Shown piece after piece: positions 3,880-18,256 of a stretch of 30,344 nt of DNA; the first letter of the stretch is position 1; the number at the start of each line of letters is the position of its first letter. The position numbers were made by a program, and so were the translations under genes. The notes below the pieces were generated by a model. That model was given only the letters and a program-made list of their open reading frames with translations, did not search any database and had not been told where the DNA came from. Origin of the DNA: a virus; the IMG/VR virus record IMGVR_UViG_3300033150_001932, positions 1 to 30,344 of that record; one strand, given 5' to 3'.

Positions 3880-5203
3880 TACTGTTGCTTGGTGCGCGCT
3901 GTATTGCCCGCATGTCCGCGCCCCGGCCGGCGGCACTACACCGTTCCTGCCCTACGACTACCAGGCCCAATTGCTCCGATCCCTTGATGGCGGTGGGCCG
4001 CATATCGTGTGCAAAGCCAGGCAAATAGGCATTAGCACCAGCGCCATGATATATGCCCTGTCCAAAGCGCTGGAGCTTGACAATTGGCTGGCCCTAGTGA
4101 TAAGCCGCACCGCGGATGCGGCGCGTGAGCTGATAGGGATAGCGCGGCTAGCTTATCTGACTGCGCGAAAGTCTGCCAAGCCTGCGCTGACCGTCGACAA
4201 CCAGATGGAACTGGGATTCTCCAACGGCTCGCGGATCGTCGGGGAGCGGTCGAGCGAGGAGGCGGGCCGCGTGTTCTCGGCCGGGTTGTTGATACTCGAC
4301 GAGGCGGCACACCTGCCTTGGCAAGAGGAGATGTGGCGCTCAGCCGAGCCCACGGTTGAGCGCACCGGCAACGTGCTGGTGGTGAGCACGCCGAACGGTG
4401 AGGGCGACCTGTTCGAGCGCCTATGGTCGCAGCATACGGACCCGGCCAAGGTGGGCGGCGTCGGGCCGGTGCACCGCGAGGATTCGGACTGGAAAGCATT
4501 CCGCCTGCCCTGGCACGTGCACCCGCAGCGTGACGCGGCGTGGAAGCGGCGGCAGTTGGAGCACATGACGGCCCGCGACTTCGCGCAGGAGTACGAGTGC
4601 GAATTCGTGTCGGCGGGTGCCAACGTGTTCCCCGCGGAAGCAGTGCAGGCCTGCGTGGAACTGTGGCCGGAGGTCCGGGACCGCGAGCCGTCGCGCGTGA
4701 CCATCGGCGTGGACGTGGCAGGCGAGGGGCGCGACGAATCGGTGGTGACGGTGCTGGACTGCTCGGCAAGCCCCTACCGGGTGATAGAGCAGGCGGCATG
4801 GGGGCGGATACCGGCGCCGGCACTACAGGCGGAGATTGAGAAGCGGCAACGGCATTGGGGCGGCGAAGTGGCGATAGACTACACGGGCGTGGGCTACGGG
4901 GTGGCACAAAACCTGGACGTGGACCACGTGCGTATCACGTTCACCGGCGGGCAAGCGGTGACGGGCAGCGGCGGCCACCAGCGGGTCCCGCGAACCGTGT
5001 TGCTGTCCAACGCGGTGCAGATGGTTGAAGCGGCGGCATTGGCCCTCAATCCCGAGGATCGCGAGTTGCTGCGGGCGGTACAGACAGCGCGCTGGGAGAA
5101 GGCACGCGGTGAGTTCGTGGACCGCCTCGACAGCCTGTTGCTGGCCCTGTGGCTGGCACGGGAGCGCGGGCGGCCCTTCGCCTATGCGACTGGCAAATAC
5201 TGA
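3803..5203 (+). CDS. terL: terminase large subunit (packaging ATPase-nuclease)
   Basis: A 466-aa DNA-packaging motor. The ATPase domain has a Walker A-like segment KARQIGIST at residues 71-79 (the RQxGxST form usual in terminases), Walker B LLILDEA at 162-168 and the coupling motif STPNG at 195-199. The RNase H-like nuclease domain supplies acidic residues in 'GVDVAGEGRDES' (D304), 'AIDYTGVG' (D359) and 'FVDRLDS' (D440/D443). The length is usual for the family. Starts at 3791 and 3854 are also in frame. 3803 is preferred because the AAGGGGGAG at 3781-3789 is too close to 3791 but lies 13 nt from 3803. The long overlap with terS suggests coupled translation. Confidence 0.92.
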   Translation: MAKARIAPEQAKTRITEMARARARRDTVAWCALYCPHVRAPAGGTTPFLPYDYQAQLLRSLDGGGPHIVCKARQIGISTSAMIYALSKALELDNWLALVISRTADAARELIGIARLAYLTARKSAKPALTVDNQMELGFSNGSRIVGERSSEEAGRVFSAGLLILDEAAHLPWQEEMWRSAEPTVERTGNVLVVSTPNGEGDLFERLWSQHTDPAKVGGVGPVHREDSDWKAFRLPWHVHPQRDAAWKRRQLEHMTARDFAQEYECEFVSAGANVFPAEAVQACVELWPEVRDREPSRVTIGVDVAGEGRDESVVTVLDCSASPYRVIEQAAWGRIPAPALQAEIEKRQRHWGGEVAIDYTGVGYGVAQNLDVDHVRITFTGGQAVTGSGGHQRVPRTVLLSNAVQMVEAAALALNPEDRELLRAVQTARWEKARGEFVDRLDSLLLALWLARERGRPFAYATGKY

Positions 5204-5220
5204 GACTGGAGAACGCGGCA

Positions 5221-6567
5221 GTGTGGCCTTTCAGGCGAAAAGCGGCAAGTGACGGCAGTCGGCAGGCGGTAGCAAGCGCAGTATCGCGGCGCAGCTATGA
5301 CAACCCCTGGTCTGGAGTATGGAGCAAGTACATTCCCCTGAAAGTTGATTACGACGTCTACGACGCGATACGCGAGGGCATACCATTCATCGACGCGGGC
5401 CTGCGCAAGTTCGCGCGCTACTGCAGCGGGTTCAAGCCGCAGTGCGACAATGAAACCACGCAGGCGGCACTCGACGCATGGATGCGCGAGGTCGGGTTCC
5501 TCGATACTTCGCTGATACGCGGCTTCCACAAGTTCTCCTACGCCTACATCAATCACATGCTGCAATACGGGCGGGCCGCGGCGGAGATAGTGCTCAGCCA
5601 GTCCGGGCGCGAGCTGTCTTACCTGACCATCGTGCCACCGCGCAAGCTGCGAATAACGCGCCGCGACGGGCGCATGGTACTGGGGCAGGCCAATGCGAGC
5701 GGCGACGTGGACGTGTTCCCGCGCCAAGACCTGTTCGTGTTTGCCCCGCTGAACGTGGAGGGCGACAATCCACAGGGTACGAGCCTGCTACGTTCATTGC
5801 CGTTCGTATCGAACATCGCCATAATCATGGAGAACGCCACGCGGCAGAAGTGGCAACGGCACGGTGCGCCGGCCTTCCACATCGCCATAACGGTGCCCCC
5901 GGATATACAGACAGAGAAGGCACAGAACCTGCTGGAGGCCGCGGTGAGCGACTACCAGAGTGCATGGCACAAGGCGATGGAGGCGCGCTGGGAGAACCAG
6001 GGCATCATAGACTTCTTCACGGGCTTCCAGGGCGACATCGAGGTCAACCCCATCGGCGCACAAGTGCAGGAGCTGGAGTTCCGCGAGACGTTCCGCGCCA
6101 TACAGGAGCAGATAGTCAGCAGCCTGGAGTTGGCCCCGTTCATGCTGGGGTTGCAGTGGTCGACGACGGAGCGGCTGAGCCAACAGCAGGCGGACGCGAT
6201 AATCAGCATGATAAACTACGTGCGCATGGAGCTGGAATCGCCATTCATGCAGATAGTGGACTGGTGGCAGCGGCTGACGGGGGCGCGGGGCGAGATACGG
6301 CCTGATTGGGAGCCGGTGTCACTGCAAGACATGGTGGAGACGGCGCGGGCGGAGCTGATGGAGGCACAGGCGGGGAAGATACGGCGATTGAACCTGGCCT
6401 TCGACTGGGCTAACGGCTTCATCGACGGCGAGCAGGCGGCGGAACTGCTGGGCTACCGCGAGCCGGTGGCTGTGGGTGACCAACCCGTGATAATCGGGCA
6501 ACCCGGCGCAATGGCCGTGCAAGCGCAGCATACGGCGGAGCGCCTGTGGGAGCGATACCCATCATAG
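5221..6567 (+). CDS. portal protein
   Basis: A 448-aa protein in the position (after terL, before MuF) of the head portal. The GTG at 5221 gives the common portal opening 'MWPFRRKA' and has TGGAGAA about 10 nt upstream. An in-frame ATG at 5149 would overlap terL by 55 nt. The body shows portal features: 'QYGRAAAEIVLSQSG', 'FVFAPLNVEGDNPQGTSLLR' (the usual 'P.G.S.L' clamp), 'EFRETFRAIQEQIVSSLELAPFMLG', and a long C-terminal helical region of the DUF935-like or SPP1-like type. Twelve copies would form the ring through which DNA is pumped, docking the terminase outside and the neck proteins later. Confidence 0.85.
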   Translation: MWPFRRKAASDGSRQAVASAVSRRSYDNPWSGVWSKYIPLKVDYDVYDAIREGIPFIDAGLRKFARYCSGFKPQCDNETTQAALDAWMREVGFLDTSLIRGFHKFSYAYINHMLQYGRAAAEIVLSQSGRELSYLTIVPPRKLRITRRDGRMVLGQANASGDVDVFPRQDLFVFAPLNVEGDNPQGTSLLRSLPFVSNIAIIMENATRQKWQRHGAPAFHIAITVPPDIQTEKAQNLLEAAVSDYQSAWHKAMEARWENQGIIDFFTGFQGDIEVNPIGAQVQELEFRETFRAIQEQIVSSLELAPFMLGLQWSTTERLSQQQADAIISMINYVRMELESPFMQIVDWWQRLTGARGEIRPDWEPVSLQDMVETARAELMEAQAGKIRRLNLAFDWANGFIDGEQAAELLGYREPVAVGDQPVIIGQPGAMAVQAQHTAERLWERYPS

Positions 6568-10994: not shown

Positions 10995-11167
10995 AGGTCC
11001 TTATCCCGCGAATGCCGCGGCAGTGGCTCGTGACATGCCCGCGCTGTGGCAGGCCGTTTGTTGTCAAGGCCAAGGCCCGTTGCCCGCGTTGCGGCGAGCT
11101 GGTGGTACTGGATGCAGAAAAGTATGCAACAAAGGGGGCCAGTCGTGGACGGCGCGCGCTGGTATGA
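10991..11167 (+). CDS. 58-aa zinc-ribbon protein
   Basis: Starts at GTG 10991, overlapping the preceding stop by 4 nt. It contains a textbook zinc ribbon, 'TCPRCGRPF' followed after 12 residues by 'RCPRCGELVVLD', that is two CPRCG knuckles. A basic tail follows (KGASRGRRALV). Such stand-alone ribbons in phages bind nucleic acid or act as protein adaptors. The 3' end overlaps the protease gene by 23 nt, which holds that gene's AAAGGGGG ribosome-binding site. Confidence 0.7.
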   Translation: MKVLIPRMPRQWLVTCPRCGRPFVVKAKARCPRCGELVVLDAEKYATKGASRGRRALV

Positions 11168-13103
11168 AATCCCGAATCCGAATTATAGCGGACAGGAGTG
11201 GGGCGGCCACGAGCGATTGGCCGCCGCGGGGGGTGCCGGTAGCCCGGTGCTACGCTGGGCGCCGCTGGCCCGCTCCGGGGTGTGGCAGGTGCGCTCGGTG
11301 CTATTTCCACGCGATACCTGGGCTGACCGCGAGAGTTGCGAACGTTGGGTGCAAGAGCACCGCGAGGAGTTGGTGGTGACGACCGTGACAAACTTGATGG
11401 TGAAGACGGTGACACTGAAGGCCGATGGGTTCGGCCCCGAGCCTACCGAGGACCAGATGGAGTTGATCAACGAGTACGCCCTGGAGCCACTCACGCCCGA
11501 CCAGGTGTACACGCGGCGCATGCGGTTGGCAAACGACCAGTGGGACCGGTCACTGGAGCGATTCAGCCGCGGAACGCTGCGCGCACTGGCCAAGACCATC
11601 ATCGGAAAGAGCGTGATGGAGGGGCACGACCATGGCAGGGCACCCCTGGGGCGATTCTATGATGCACGCGTGGGCAAGGACCCGAAGGGCGAAAATGATT
11701 GGCAGTGGCTGAATGCCTACTGGTATACCGTGAAAACAGCAGCCAATGAACCCATGCGACAAAGCATTGATGCAGGGGTATGGCGTGACGTCAGCATAGG
11801 GTTCTTCTACGAGTGGATGCAATGCAGCATCTGCCAGGAAAACTACATGGACGAGAACAAGTGCCCGCATATCAAGGGGAACAGGTATCCATTGGAGGAG
11901 TGCGTCGATCCCTCGGATACGCCACTTACCGAGGATGGTAGCCAGGCGATTTGCGGGGTAATCTACCGCGGCAAGGCCGAAGCGGTAGAAGGCTCGTTCG
12001 TGTACCTAGGGGCGCAGTATGGCGCCGAGGTAGTCAAGGCGGCCATGAGCGGCGACTTGGTGGCCGCGAAAAAACTCAAGCTGGGCGAGGAGGAACCGGA
12101 AGTGTCACAGGCAAGGAAGGCGAGGTTGGTAGTGCCGGGGTTGGATAGCGACGCCAAACCGGAGGGTAAGATGAGCGAGGGGGCGCACATCGGCACGCCT
12201 CACAGGCTCCCACCTGCACCGGAGGACGCGCGTTGGAACCCGGATGGCGTGAGCGAGGCGCAAATCATCCATACGATTCTGGGCAATTGGCAGAATGACC
12301 GGGAACCGAACTGGGATAATGCCAAGAAATGCAACGTCTACTGGCGCGACCCGGGAGACCGCATAAACGACTACAAGTTGAAGGTAGCGCGACGTGATCC
12401 CATCCGCAATGACGGCAGGCTGAAGCTGTTCTGGAGGCAAGTGGCGAGCCGCATGGCCATCCTATTTGGGGCGCGCGGCGGTGTGGACATCCCCAGGGAG
12501 GACCGGCGAGCTTGCTACGATGAATTGGTTCGCTGCTACAAGGTTTTCGACAAGGAACCCCCGGAGTTCAAGATTGCTGACCAGCAGATGGGGCTTGATG
12601 CATTCATAGACTTGACAGGGAGCTGGCCCGACTTGGACCACGTGGTGTTTAGGGCGGGCGAGTTCGGCATATTGGCGACTGGGGCGGGCCCGGACCCCGG
12701 TGGCGGCACAGACATGGCGGGCAAAGGAGCTGATACGATGGACGATGCACAGGTAAAGGAACTGCAGGAGGCGCTAGAGGCGGAGAAGGCCAAGGCCGAA
12801 GAAGCCCAGAAGGCGGCGGAACATTCCGCCAAGGAGGCCGCGGCATTGCGGGCTCGCGTAGTCGAGGACGTCGTGCGTCTGGCCGGCGTGCTCAAGCGCG
12901 AGGCGGAACTGGAGACACTGCAAGCCGCATTCGGCGAGGACCTGGCCTCCATGCCGGCAGAGAAGCTGCTGGAACTGCAAAGCCGCTGGCAGAAGCTCTG
13001 GGACGAGGAGCGGCCACACGGCCAGCAGAGTGACCCCGGCGACAGCGCCGACAGCGCCGACGACGAGACGGTGGTAACCGTCACCGGGCCGCTCATGGCC
13101 TAA
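11145..13103 (+). CDS. prohead protease-scaffold fusion with zinc-knuckle insert
   Basis: A 652-aa protein. Residues about 95-300 match the HK97/S78 prohead protease pattern: 'VMEGHDHGRAPLGRF' (H161/H163), 'WRDVSIGF' (candidate nucleophile S217) and 'AEAVEGSFVYLGAQYGA' (E282). Between them is a zinc knuckle, CSIC...CPH at 227-242. Residues about 364-474 are a helical domain with 'RINDYKLKVARRD' and 'ASRMAILFGARGG', which I recall from other large phage proteases. Residues 534-587 form a strong coiled coil (EALEAEKAKAEEAQKAAEHS), the scaffold part, followed by an acidic tail. Self-cleavage and scaffold removal during head maturation is the expected role, just before the capsid genes. GTG 11145 has AAAGGGGG upstream, and an ATG at 11124 is possible. 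Confidence 0.78.
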   Translation: MDGARWYEIPNPNYSGQEWGGHERLAAAGGAGSPVLRWAPLARSGVWQVRSVLFPRDTWADRESCERWVQEHREELVVTTVTNLMVKTVTLKADGFGPEPTEDQMELINEYALEPLTPDQVYTRRMRLANDQWDRSLERFSRGTLRALAKTIIGKSVMEGHDHGRAPLGRFYDARVGKDPKGENDWQWLNAYWYTVKTAANEPMRQSIDAGVWRDVSIGFFYEWMQCSICQENYMDENKCPHIKGNRYPLEECVDPSDTPLTEDGSQAICGVIYRGKAEAVEGSFVYLGAQYGAEVVKAAMSGDLVAAKKLKLGEEEPEVSQARKARLVVPGLDSDAKPEGKMSEGAHIGTPHRLPPAPEDARWNPDGVSEAQIIHTILGNWQNDREPNWDNAKKCNVYWRDPGDRINDYKLKVARRDPIRNDGRLKLFWRQVASRMAILFGARGGVDIPREDRRACYDELVRCYKVFDKEPPEFKIADQQMGLDAFIDLTGSWPDLDHVVFRAGEFGILATGAGPDPGGGTDMAGKGADTMDDAQVKELQEALEAEKAKAEEAQKAAEHSAKEAAALRARVVEDVVRLAGVLKREAELETLQAAFGEDLASMPAEKLLELQSRWQKLWDEERPHGQQSDPGDSADSADDETVVTVTGPLMA

Positions 13104-13561: not shown

Positions 13562-14767
13562 ATGGCATATAAATTCTCTCCACCTGACAAACAAATATAC
13601 AAGTCCTTGCAAGAGGACGCGCGCGCTTTCTACGCAGAGGCGCAGATAAGGCGCAAGGAAGGCGGCGCAGACTACCTGCTGGAGCTGGACCCGCCCGACC
13701 CAGTGCAGGACGCGGAGGCGGTGAAATACTACGAGCAGCAATTGATCGCCGGCATCCGTGGCAGTGGCAAGGCGGCCGAGCATAATGCCGAGCTGATGAG
13801 CCCGCGGCGGCGTGCCGAGATTCACGAATGGGCGCGCAAGCGGGCCAACGTGCAGCGCTACATCGCGAAGGCTGCCGGGTCGAACCCCATACTCACGTTG
13901 AAGGATTTCTTCGTGGATACGGGGGTGACGGCCCTCTTCCCGGCCTACGTCGAGACCCGCATACAGCAGGGGCGGCTACAAACCTCGCTGGTTAGCGAGT
14001 TGGTATTTGCCGATGAAACAGCATCCAGCCCGCGGGCCACGGCGCTGTACTTCAGCGACACTGCGGCCGATCGCACACTGTTGAAGACCAACGAGGGTGC
14101 GGAGCTGCCGGCCACGGAATTCTCGGTGGCGGACAGTACCATCACCCTGTATAAGTACGGGCGACAGTTGCAGTTCAGCTACGAGTCGCTGGATTCGCAG
14201 AACATCGATGCAGTCGGCAACATGCTGACCCGTATAGGGCAACAGATAGGTATCAACGAAACCGACATGCTATTGAATATCGCCATAGCCGGAGATGGAA
14301 CCACGGCGGGGGCCGCGGAGACGGACAGCACCGACACCGACGTCGCTTCTGCGGGGACCATCGCATTCAGCGACCTGCTGAACTGGTTCTACGCGACAGG
14401 CAATCCCGCCTACCAGCTGGACAAGGCGGTGGCGGGTGCCACGGACCTCAAGCTGATAGCGGACTTGGCCGAGTTCGCCGACGTGGAGTACATCACGGGC
14501 CAGGGTAGCCTGCCCATTCCCACGCCGGTCGGCATCCGCTACTTCTGGTGGGACGGTGGCGTGAGCGGTTCGTCTTATGTTGACCGGCTGGTTATCGGCT
14601 TCGACAGCTCGGCGGCCATGATGAGGTACACTTACGGCGGCTTCATCGAGGAGGCCGACAGGCTCATCACCCGCCAGGTGCACCGGCACACGTTCAGCTA
14701 CTACGTCGGGTTCCGCAAGTTCGACGCGACCGCGGTACAGGTCCTCGACGTGAATGCGGTGCTCTAA
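13562..14767 (+). CDS. major capsid protein (HK97 fold)
   Basis: A 401-aa protein. The helical, charged first 110 residues look like a delta domain that the upstream protease could remove. The body shows HK97-fold landmarks: an N-arm region, an extended E-loop part ('VSELVFADETASSPRATALYF'), 'LYKYGRQLQFSYESLDSQNID' leading into the spine helix, and a C-terminal P-domain stretch ('ADRLITRQVHRHTFSYYVGFRKFDATAVQVLDVNA') that is very typical of phage major capsid proteins. It lies between the decoration-like and fibre-like genes. About 415 copies would be the norm for a T=7 head. Confidence 0.88.
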   Translation: MAYKFSPPDKQIYKSLQEDARAFYAEAQIRRKEGGADYLLELDPPDPVQDAEAVKYYEQQLIAGIRGSGKAAEHNAELMSPRRRAEIHEWARKRANVQRYIAKAAGSNPILTLKDFFVDTGVTALFPAYVETRIQQGRLQTSLVSELVFADETASSPRATALYFSDTAADRTLLKTNEGAELPATEFSVADSTITLYKYGRQLQFSYESLDSQNIDAVGNMLTRIGQQIGINETDMLLNIAIAGDGTTAGAAETDSTDTDVASAGTIAFSDLLNWFYATGNPAYQLDKAVAGATDLKLIADLAEFADVEYITGQGSLPIPTPVGIRYFWWDGGVSGSSYVDRLVIGFDSSAAMMRYTYGGFIEEADRLITRQVHRHTFSYYVGFRKFDATAVQVLDVNAVL

Positions 14768-14779
14768 GGAGGTGGTCAC

Positions 14780-15295
14780 ATGGCAAAGCCAATGAAGGCC
14801 TGGTTCAAGGCCGGCGTGATTGACGCGACCGAACTGGCTGCCAATTCCGTGGGCACCTCGGAGCTGAGCGCGGCGAGCGTGACGAACGCCAAGCTGGCCA
14901 ACCCGAACCACTATTTCGTGGTGGGGCCGTTCGTGGCGGCGGGCACGGCAAGTGACGGCGACCGGATCGGCACCTTCGGGATGCCGGTGGATGCCACGTT
15001 CGTGGGCCTGTACGTGAACCTGAGCACGGTAATGACGGCGCAGTCGGCGGTGTTCGACTGCCATATCCTGAGTAATGCGTCGAGTAGCGCGGCCAGTGCG
15101 AACTCGGTCTTCGGCACGGGCAGCAAGCTCAACGTGCCGTCAACCGTGGATGCATTCGAGACGCGCAGCGGCGTGAGCAGCGGGACACTGACGACCGCGT
15201 CTGCAGGCAACGTGGTGCTCATCGACGTGCATGAAGCCGGCAGCACGGCGGGCGGGATAACTGCCTACGCGCTGTTCAAGGTGGCGCACGTTTAG
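14780..15295 (+). CDS. fibre-like structural protein (head fibre candidate)
   Basis: A 171-aa protein beside the capsid gene with TAAGGAGGTGG upstream. The N-terminus has a phage-fibre repeat style, 'IDATELAANSVGTSELSAAS...NAKLA', where 'T-A-x-L/K-L' units form a triple helical stalk. The rest is Ser/Ala/Thr/Gly-rich beta sandwich ('VGPFVAAGTASDGDRIGTF', 'TASAGNVVLIDVHEAG'). Head-fibre proteins of siphophages have this build and position. It is the last gene before a strong hairpin. Confidence 0.65.
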   Translation: MAKPMKAWFKAGVIDATELAANSVGTSELSAASVTNAKLANPNHYFVVGPFVAAGTASDGDRIGTFGMPVDATFVGLYVNLSTVMTAQSAVFDCHILSNASSSAASANSVFGTGSKLNVPSTVDAFETRSGVSSGTLTTASAGNVVLIDVHEAGSTAGGITAYALFKVAHV

Positions 15296-15655: not shown

Positions 15656-17225
15656 ATGCGGATAGGAGTAGCGAGCAGCAACCTCAACTTCGCAAAGGGC
15701 CTTATCGCGGAACTTGACAAGCGTGACCACACGGGCGATTGCCTGCTGTACGAACAGCCTGCTGTACGAACACACCGCCGACCTCGCCTCTAACATGATG
15801 CAACTCGGCGGGATGTTCGCAACCTGCGACGTGATATTCGTGGACTTTGCCCAATGGCCGCTACCGGTGGTGCTGGAGAAGTTCCCCGGCCGGGTAATAG
15901 TCCGCCTGCACCGCGTGGAGCTGTACAACGAAGAACTCTACAAGCTGCCGTGGGGGCGTTGCGAGACGCTGGTATTCATTGCCGAGCATGTACAGCGGCG
16001 GTTCCTCGAGCGGCTGGAGGCAGCAGGCGGCCAAATGCCCAAGTCGGTGCGTTGCCTGGGGCACGTGGGCGTGGACTTGGAGCGCTTTGCCTTCCGCGAA
16101 CGCAACTGGGAACCGCCGTGGCGGATACTGTTGGCCGGGCAACTGGTGCCCAAGAAGCGGCAGTACACGGCGATACAGATGCTGGCCGACCTGCCCGAGG
16201 AATTCCACCTCACCGTGGTAGGCAGCGGCGGGCAGCAAACCGGCTATGGCAATCCCGAGTACCACGTCAACTGCCAAGACCTGGTGGAGGAGCTGGGTTT
16301 GCGGGGGCGAGTGACTGGCCTGCCCTCGATGCCGCAGGAGCAGCTTGCCGAGGAGATGGGCAAGCACCACCTGGTGCTGTCGGCCAGCAACGAGGAGGGC
16401 TGCCATACCGTGGTCGCGGAGGGCATGGCAACGGGGCTGGTGCCGCTGGTGAACCGTTGGCGCGGAGCCAAGCACATGTACCCCGCGCGGTGGGTCTGGG
16501 GTAGCCCCAAGGAGCTGTATATATTATGCCGGCGCTGGGCACGGTACGGCGAGGCGCGCAAGGCCAAGCTGTCCACCGAGATGAGTGAATGGGCGCAGCG
16601 CTGGGATGCAGCGAAGCTCAATGCCGAACTAGCCGACATAATCGCAGGGCCGCTGCCCACGGAAGAGCAGTTCTACGACGCCCACCTCGAGCACCAGGCA
16701 CAGCAGTGGGGCAACCCGCGGCAGCAACGTTGCTTGGGCCTGCTGATGGACAATACCAAGAGCGGGGATAAATGCCTGGACGTGGGCTGTGGCGCCGGCT
16801 ACGTGGTGGCGCGCGCGGCGGAGGCGGGCCGCGTCGTGCTGGGCGTGGACATCAGCAAGCGGTTATTGCAGTTCGCCGCCGAGCATGCACCGCCGCAGGC
16901 AAAGTTCCTACAGCTGGACATCAGGCAGCAAGTGCCCCGCGGCCCGTGGGCGGCGATAAGCATGTTCGATGCCCTCGAGCATATACCCTCCGCGGACAGG
17001 CGCAAGGTCCTGCGGGGGCTGACGCGGCAACTTGCAGAGGGCGGCAGGCTGCTACTCACCTTCCCGTGGGGAACGGGCGACGCCTCGCAACCATACGAGG
17101 AGCCGGTACACCCCAAGACAGTGGCGAAATACCTGGTCGAGGAGTGCGGGTGCACGGTAGTCCGCTCCGAGCCGCTTGACGAGACGTACTTTTGCCTGGT
17201 CGCAGAGAAGGGGGAGTGCGCATGA
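15656..17225 (+). CDS. glycosyltransferase-methyltransferase fusion, 5' end frameshifted by a 16-bp duplication
   Basis: ATG 15656 follows AGGGGGAG and opens 'MRIGVASSNLNFAKGLIAEL', a GT-B style first strand. At 15741-15772 a 16-bp unit is present twice, and the frame runs into TAA at 15791. With one copy removed it reads straight into the long downstream frame (LLYEHTADLASNMM...), giving a 517-aa protein. That frame encodes a GT4 glycosyltransferase ('WRILLAGQLVPKKRQY', 'LVLSASNEEGCHTVVAEGMA') and then a class I SAM methyltransferase ('CLDVGCGAGYVVARAAEAG', 'LGVDIS', 'MFDALEHIPS'). As written, only re-initiation at ATG 15795, 1 nt after the stop, would express most of the protein. The 3' end overlaps the next glycosyltransferase by 4 nt (ATGA). 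Confidence 0.82.
15741..15772 (+). repeat. 16-bp tandem duplication (two copies)
   Basis: GCCTGCTGTACGAACA occurs twice, head to tail, at 15741-15756 and 15757-15772. Because 16 is not a multiple of three, the second copy shifts the frame of the glycosyltransferase gene. Deleting one copy restores an uninterrupted frame. Confidence 0.95.
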
Positions 17226-18256
17226 GCATCAAGGTACTGCACTGGTCGCTGTTCGCACCGAACCGTTCCGGCATGTACCACACGACCAAGGACCTGGTAA
17301 TTGCCCAGCAGGCCGCGGGTATCGACGCGCAGATGGTGTGTGCCTTTCGGCCGGAGACGGTGCACGCCGACGGCGACTTCCGCACGGTCACCAGCAAGTG
17401 GAAGGACGTGGCGGACATCTACGTGCTGAGTAGCCGTATCAACCCGCCGGCCTACAACGACGGCACGCCGATAGTGTTCCTGCTGCACGGTCACCCGCTG
17501 TACTCGTGGCAGTCGGAGCTGTACGGGCTGGAGCCGGCGAATCCCACGCCTTGGACTACGAGCCTGCGGTATTTCGGTGAGCAGTGCATCCAGCGCTTCG
17601 TGACGTTCTGGCCCGACCAGCTACCCTACTGGCAGGCACTGGACGGCCCGCGCAAGGAGAGCCGCGTGCGGCTGGTGCCGCGGGGCATCATGTTCGGTGA
17701 CAGGTTCACGCCGCAGGGTCCAAAGGAGGAGCTTGCCGGCGATCCCGTTCTGGTGATTGCCGACCAGTTCCGGTTGTTCAAGGACTCGTTTGCATTATGG
17801 TTCGCGGCGCGCGAGTTCCAGAAGCGTCACCCGGAGGCGCGACTGCACATGTACGTCATACCGCCCGCCGACACCAAGCCGGGCGAGGCGATACGGCGGG
17901 TCATATCCGAGTCGGAATTGCGCTACGTGGTGGGGAGCCTCAATCCCATACACGAGCACATCGAGCGAGTGTTCCGCGCTGCCGACATCGTCCTCACCTC
18001 GGTAATCAGCGAGAGTCGCGTGGCCTTGGAGGCCATGGCGTGCGGTGCAGATGTTGTAAGCCAATTCTGTGACGGGACGCACGAGGCCTGTTTCCGCAGT
18101 CCCGCCACGATAGCCGATACGATCGAGAAGGTATGGCTGGAGCGGCAAGAGGAAGGCCCGGGGCGGCGCGAACGGTTATCCCGGGAGGTGCGCGAGAGGT
18201 TCGATATCCGCCGCACCGTGGAGGGCATGAGGCAGGTATACGAGGAGTTACTGTGA
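17222..18256 (+). CDS. GT4-family glycosyltransferase
   Basis: A 344-aa GT-B fold enzyme. It begins 'MSIKVLHWSLFAPNRSGMYHT', the usual GT4 first strand with its glycine-containing acceptor loop. It carries 'LVPRGIMFGDRFTPQG' at the domain junction, 'VLVIADQFRLFKDSFALWFA' as the donor-binding strand, and 'AADIVLTSVISESRVALEAMACG', the conserved ExxxxxAMACG nucleotide-sugar motif. It would transfer a sugar from an NDP-sugar to an acceptor that the sequence does not reveal. ATG 17222 overlaps the preceding stop by 4 nt and has AAGGGGGAG upstream, so the two transferases are co-translated. They form a cassette inside the structural genes. Confidence 0.85.
   Translation: MSIKVLHWSLFAPNRSGMYHTTKDLVIAQQAAGIDAQMVCAFRPETVHADGDFRTVTSKWKDVADIYVLSSRINPPAYNDGTPIVFLLHGHPLYSWQSELYGLEPANPTPWTTSLRYFGEQCIQRFVTFWPDQLPYWQALDGPRKESRVRLVPRGIMFGDRFTPQGPKEELAGDPVLVIADQFRLFKDSFALWFAAREFQKRHPEARLHMYVIPPADTKPGEAIRRVISESELRYVVGSLNPIHEHIERVFRAADIVLTSVISESRVALEAMACGADVVSQFCDGTHEACFRSPATIADTIEKVWLERQEEGPGRRERLSREVRERFDIRRTVEGMRQVYEELL

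Follow-up and report, generated by a model that had tools for sequence, protein, structure and literature searches.

The locus raises the question of whether a short tandem repeat near the start of a predicted phage glycosyltransferase gene acts as a switch, marks a gene that has recently been broken, or was added to the record by sequencing or assembly.

The 16-bp repeat and the reading frames around it

An exact repeat search of the window, which is the entire 30,344-base virus record (the whole assembly), found GCCTGCTGTACGAACA as two identical, adjoining head-to-tail copies at 15741-15772 (Table 1). The array comprises exactly 2.00 units, neither flank extends the repeat identity, and inspection of the breakpoints found no microhomology flanking the array. 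By length as well as by score the repeat ranks first among the exact tandem repeats of the window, and other viral loci, about 982 kb in total, contain few exact tandem repeats with a period of at least 10 and a run of at least 16. By coincidence, such a 16-bp repeat would be expected ~1e-5 times in the window (rough estimate, 30,344 x about 0.26^16), which rules out a chance origin and indicates that the repeat is either a duplication event or an artefact. The duplication brings GCTGT-ACGA-ACAGC together, and the folding of the DNA is unremarkable in its context (z -1.2).

Table 1. Coordinates and strand of the features at the interrupted gene, with the reading or evidence for each.
Feature	Position	Strand	Reading or evidence
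Repeat copy 1, GCCTGCTGTACGAACA	15741..15756	+	upstream-frame reading ..CLLYEQ
Repeat copy 2, same as copy 1	15757..15772	+	downstream-frame reading ..SLLYEHT
True 5' end of the gene, with the truncated frame of 45 aa, TAA stop	15656..15793	+	L024 homology, codon usage, ribosome-binding site
Rest of the gene, predicted GT4 glycosyltransferase followed by SAM methyltransferase domain	15754..17225	+	+1 frame relative to the start; left edge approximate, inside the repeat
In-frame ATG, possible but unsupported re-initiation site	15795..15797	+	one base past the TAA; no Shine-Dalgarno
Second glycosyltransferase	17222..18256	+	start codon overlapping the broken gene's stop (ATGA); own ribosome-binding site

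The duplication is located 85 nt into a gene starting at ATG 15656, and a strong ribosome-binding site, GGGGGAG, is positioned 5 nt before this ATG. The frame of ATG 15656 translates as MRIGVASSNLNFAKGLIAELDKRDHTGDCLLYEQPAVRTHRRPRL and reaches a TAA at 15791-15793 after 45 codons, while the remaining gene is open to 17225 in another frame. Since 16 is not a multiple of three, ribosomes initiating at ATG 15656 would change frame at the duplication and terminate at 15793. Ahead of the repeat, codon usage trained on the other genes of the window favours the start frame (+7.0 bits, against -20.9 and -24.7), and past the repeat it favours the downstream frame, so that the switch in preference coincides with the repeat. 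A mechanical ORF finder begins the long frame at TTG 15714; no Shine-Dalgarno sequence precedes this TTG or ATG 15795, in contrast to the starts at 15656 and 17222. Searched by itself against Pfam and NCBIfam, the 45-aa peptide gives no match, and its homology becomes visible only against the ortholog of a related phage (see below). The sequence-only reading had described a perfect 16-bp head-to-tail duplication that shifts the frame 85 nt into the gene, a one-copy product of 517 aa, and a truncated frame whose TAA lies 1 nt before an in-frame ATG of the long frame. Indeed, the two copies adjoin and do not differ at any base, the frames run as described, the arithmetic is correct, and the TAA-C-ATG arrangement is found at the ATG at 15795.

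Intact orthologs and the predicted enzyme

Scanning with a conserved piece of the glycosyltransferase retrieved a relative from another virome (IMGVR_UViG_3300033064_001810, here L024), which is syntenic with the window for the gene at 11046-13103, the capsid, the GT-methyltransferase, the second glycosyltransferase and several later genes. Its ortholog is one uninterrupted 520-aa ORF with one copy of the segment, which begins MKIGVATSNDAFLKPLENELNRRGHDILKYRHTGDPRQDAFQLGQL, and the ATG equivalent to 15656 is immediately preceded by a ribosome-binding site. Residues 1-32 of the L024 protein align to the first 34 residues of the upstream frame of the window (17/34 identical, E 1e-6), and the alignment to the downstream frame spans residues 26-519 (41%, 331 bits); each of the two repeat copies, read in its respective frame, matches the L024 segment ILKYR. 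Both alignments thus meet inside the repeat, as predicted if a segment once present singly was duplicated in tandem. A second, more distant relative (L106) encodes an intact 343-aa glycosyltransferase with a similar type of N-terminus and 37% over the GT part, and its methyltransferase is a separate gene downstream of the glycosyltransferase. A tandem repeat at the equivalent site is absent in both L024 and L106. The comparison identifies one copy as the ancestral state and the duplication as a derived frameshift. The earlier claim that the duplication puts a glycosyltransferase out of frame is therefore borne out by the intact one-copy relatives, with the addition that the gene also carries a fused methyltransferase. 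The same reading had suggested comparing related phages for a different natural start downstream. Both relatives start at the upstream-frame start, and a natural start at TTG 15714 or ATG 15795, each of which is devoid of a ribosome-binding site, was rejected. An overlap of about 120 nt between the two frames (15672-15793) could also accommodate programmed +1 ribosomal frameshifting that joins them. The duplication, however, fully accounts for this overlap, and the relatives use a single frame, so that there is no conserved frameshift site; programmed frameshifting was ruled out on this lack of conservation and is given next to no credence.

The downstream frame of the window matches Glycos_transf_1 (PF00534; E 2.6e-11, 43.8 bits against a curated cut-off of 26.4), as does the L024 ortholog (37.7 bits), which has the same domain order. 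Furthermore, a SAM methyltransferase domain is recognized by a Methyltransf_25/11 match above the Pfam cut-off (E 4.9e-16), and the glycine-rich SAM motif LDVGCGAGY is read in the downstream frame. A structure model of the L024 ortholog, of modest confidence (mean pLDDT 72, alignment of 3 sequences), was compared with the PDB using Foldseek. Its best match is the mannosyltransferase 7qsg (E 7.6e-12), and other GT-B matches include sucrose-phosphate synthase, MshA and BshA. Domain matches and model together identify the protein as a predicted GT4-type glycosyltransferase (GT-B fold) fused to a class I SAM methyltransferase, and they place the window allele as a broken member of the GT4-type glycosyltransferases of which L024 and L106 are predicted to carry intact forms. 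In the model the N-terminus is composed of β1 (2-6), α1 (10-22), β2 (26-30), α2 (36-49) and β3 (52-57). The frameshift interrupts β2, leaving the window allele without a complete N-terminal Rossmann domain in one frame. This bears on the earlier suggestion of TAA-coupled re-initiation at the in-frame ATG. By such re-initiation at ATG 15795, or by a start at TTG 15714, the allele could remain productive and yield a shortened enzyme (~476-503 aa), or else a methyltransferase half that still works. The TAA-C-ATG spacing fits termination-reinitiation, the ATG is in frame and the methyltransferase domain is intact, so that the arrangement does permit coupling. By contrast, 15795 and 15714 are without a Shine-Dalgarno sequence, unlike 15656 and 17222, and both relatives use the upstream start. 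In addition, the re-initiated product would miss β1-α1-β2 of the N-terminal Rossmann domain of the GT-B fold, and a product from 15795 is thus unlikely to work as a glycosyltransferase, although its methyltransferase half might fold. A productive two-copy allele is therefore considered very improbable.

The glycan cassette beside the capsid gene

Upstream of the interrupted gene lie the major capsid protein (phrog_3922) and then a small protein, and downstream follows the second glycosyltransferase. The cassette is flanked by capsid genes on one side and tail genes on the other. Via the ATGA overlap at 17222-17225 the frameshift could reduce coupled translation of the second glycosyltransferase. 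A conserved phage cassette can be delimited in all three genomes (window 15656-18256, L024 4296-8326, L106 5911-10202). It combines two glycosyltransferases, the first of GT4 type, with a methyltransferase that is fused to the GT4 enzyme in the window and L024 but has its own gene in L106. The L024 cassette is extended by a gene resembling UDP-sugar dehydrogenases and by a weak match to a methyltransferase, and that of L106 by a calcineurin-like phosphoesterase. By analogy with mycobacteriophages (PMC12363180), a natural guess would be that the cassette glycosylates a component of the virion or of the host. The gene between capsid and cassette in L024 (3173-4219) contains a long array of related repeats with tandem units of 51 bp and longer, all in frame; the protein at 14780-15295 of the window occupies the same place and is weakly similar (E 7e-4), without the array. 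The protein encoded at this place could be a head fibre and might serve as acceptor of the glycan. The portal and capsid genes of the window (5149-6567, 11046-13103 and 13562-14767) indicate a divergent phage group, the sole named isolate with a portal match being Microcystis phage MACPNOA1 (27%); the matching gene there bears the annotation glycerone kinase, which is apparently wrong.

Further relatives of the gene were sought in several collections. Cultured phages, searched at both the DNA and the protein level, gave no match to the gene, the first round of whole-protein scans of IMG/VR and GTDB found nothing, and a 16-mer scan of IMG/VR returned 16 loci, none of which (0/16) is similar to the window by DNA. 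Scans of IMG/VR and GTDB relied on short exact peptide patterns, so that many relatives will have been missed. Capsid-only and portal-only sequence scans gave no matches, the capsid alignment search reached distant phages only, with the gene absent from the stretches compared, and a GTDB scan with an alignment gave only a weak match in the methyltransferase region.

Origin of the two-copy allele and its relation to known systems

The recorded lesion is best explained, with fair though incomplete confidence, as a real frameshift allele that arose by a recent exact tandem duplication in the phage genomes. The duplication would have been generated in the 5' part of the GT-methyltransferase gene by a single event, replication slippage or template switching, and the resulting two-copy allele would be null or near-null for the enzyme; reversion by loss of one copy could occur at low frequency. 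It is probably recent, since the copies are identical and the gene carries no other lesion, while a near-identical one-copy sister genome was not found in the searches of IMG/VR, cultured phages and GTDB. Against a real slippage event stands the missing breakpoint microhomology, which the simplest slippage model expects.

Alternatively, the phage genomes could carry one copy and an intact gene, the second copy being an artefact of assembly or library preparation. This would agree with the one-copy, intact state of L024 and with the otherwise undamaged downstream coding sequence, and the record is a single metagenomic consensus contig for which a search of IMG/VR found no second assembly. However, the usual assembly k-mers are longer than a tandem copy of 16 bp and tend to collapse, not to create, repeats of this kind. 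Furthermore, the other window genes comparable with L024 each align in one frame with no other frameshift apparent, which indicates that the contig is not generally error-ridden. An artefact is accordingly regarded as a minority explanation that deserves to be taken seriously.

Beside recent loss of function and assembly error, the sequence-only reading had also raised phase variation by repeat slippage, in which one- and two-copy phages coexist and copy gain or loss reversibly toggles glycan modification. Glycan genes are typical targets of phase variation, exact duplications in Streptococcus pneumoniae capsule genes provide a precedent, and reversion of a perfect 16-bp tandem is possible in principle. 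However, the array has two copies only, and thus no pre-existing slippage-prone multi-copy tract; it lacks the breakpoint microhomology that would make gain recurrent, the repeat is missing from L024 and L106, and a one-copy sister was not seen among the public viral contigs of IMG/VR. Phase variation, as raised earlier, is therefore possible, being mechanistically sound, but unsupported, and coexisting, reversibly toggling phages are judged improbable. That gain or loss of a single 16-bp copy switches the GT-methyltransferase, such that virions or infected cells vary in their surface glycan, appears slightly less probable still. The locus does not demonstrate an on/off switch; it is either a copy of the gene that was broken recently or a slip in sequencing.

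If the two-copy allele is real, the glycan-modifying enzyme would be dispensable, or selected against, in that phage population, and the allele would represent a natural knock-out that points to the role of the cassette as well as a test case for phase variation by tandem duplication in phages. If it is an artefact, the locus cautions against taking frameshifts in single contigs as biology. The intact orthologs delimit a little-described phage glycan cassette beside the capsid gene.

Contingency loci usually have multi-copy tracts that are conserved among relatives. As in the simple-sequence-repeat loci of bacterial glycosyltransferase genes, a change in repeat copy number frameshifts a glycosyltransferase here, but those loci comprise many short units conserved as repeats among relatives, and the repeat of the window has neither feature. 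In Streptococcus pneumoniae, work by Waite and colleagues from 2001 and 2003 reportedly found that spontaneous exact duplications in capsule genes cause phase variation at the type 3 locus, cap8E and tts, where reversion and population switching are said to have been measured in culture. The phage allele differs in being known from one metagenomic consensus, with no evidence of reversion; as in the capsule genes, a precise head-to-tail duplication affects a non-repetitive stretch of a glycan-synthesis frame, and the gene is predicted to be inactivated. Microhomology-mediated tandem duplications are flanked by microhomology pairs (PMC13207564). The window array, of exactly 2.00 units, has no such flanking pairs, although it resembles these duplications in being exact, two-copy, situated in coding sequence and open to renewed loss. 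Finally, virion glycosylation encoded by the phage itself is described for the mycobacteriophages Che8, Corndog and Myrna (PMC12363180). The window, with its predicted GT-methyltransferase fusion, shares with them that the glycosyltransferases are encoded by the phage, here between the capsid and tail genes.
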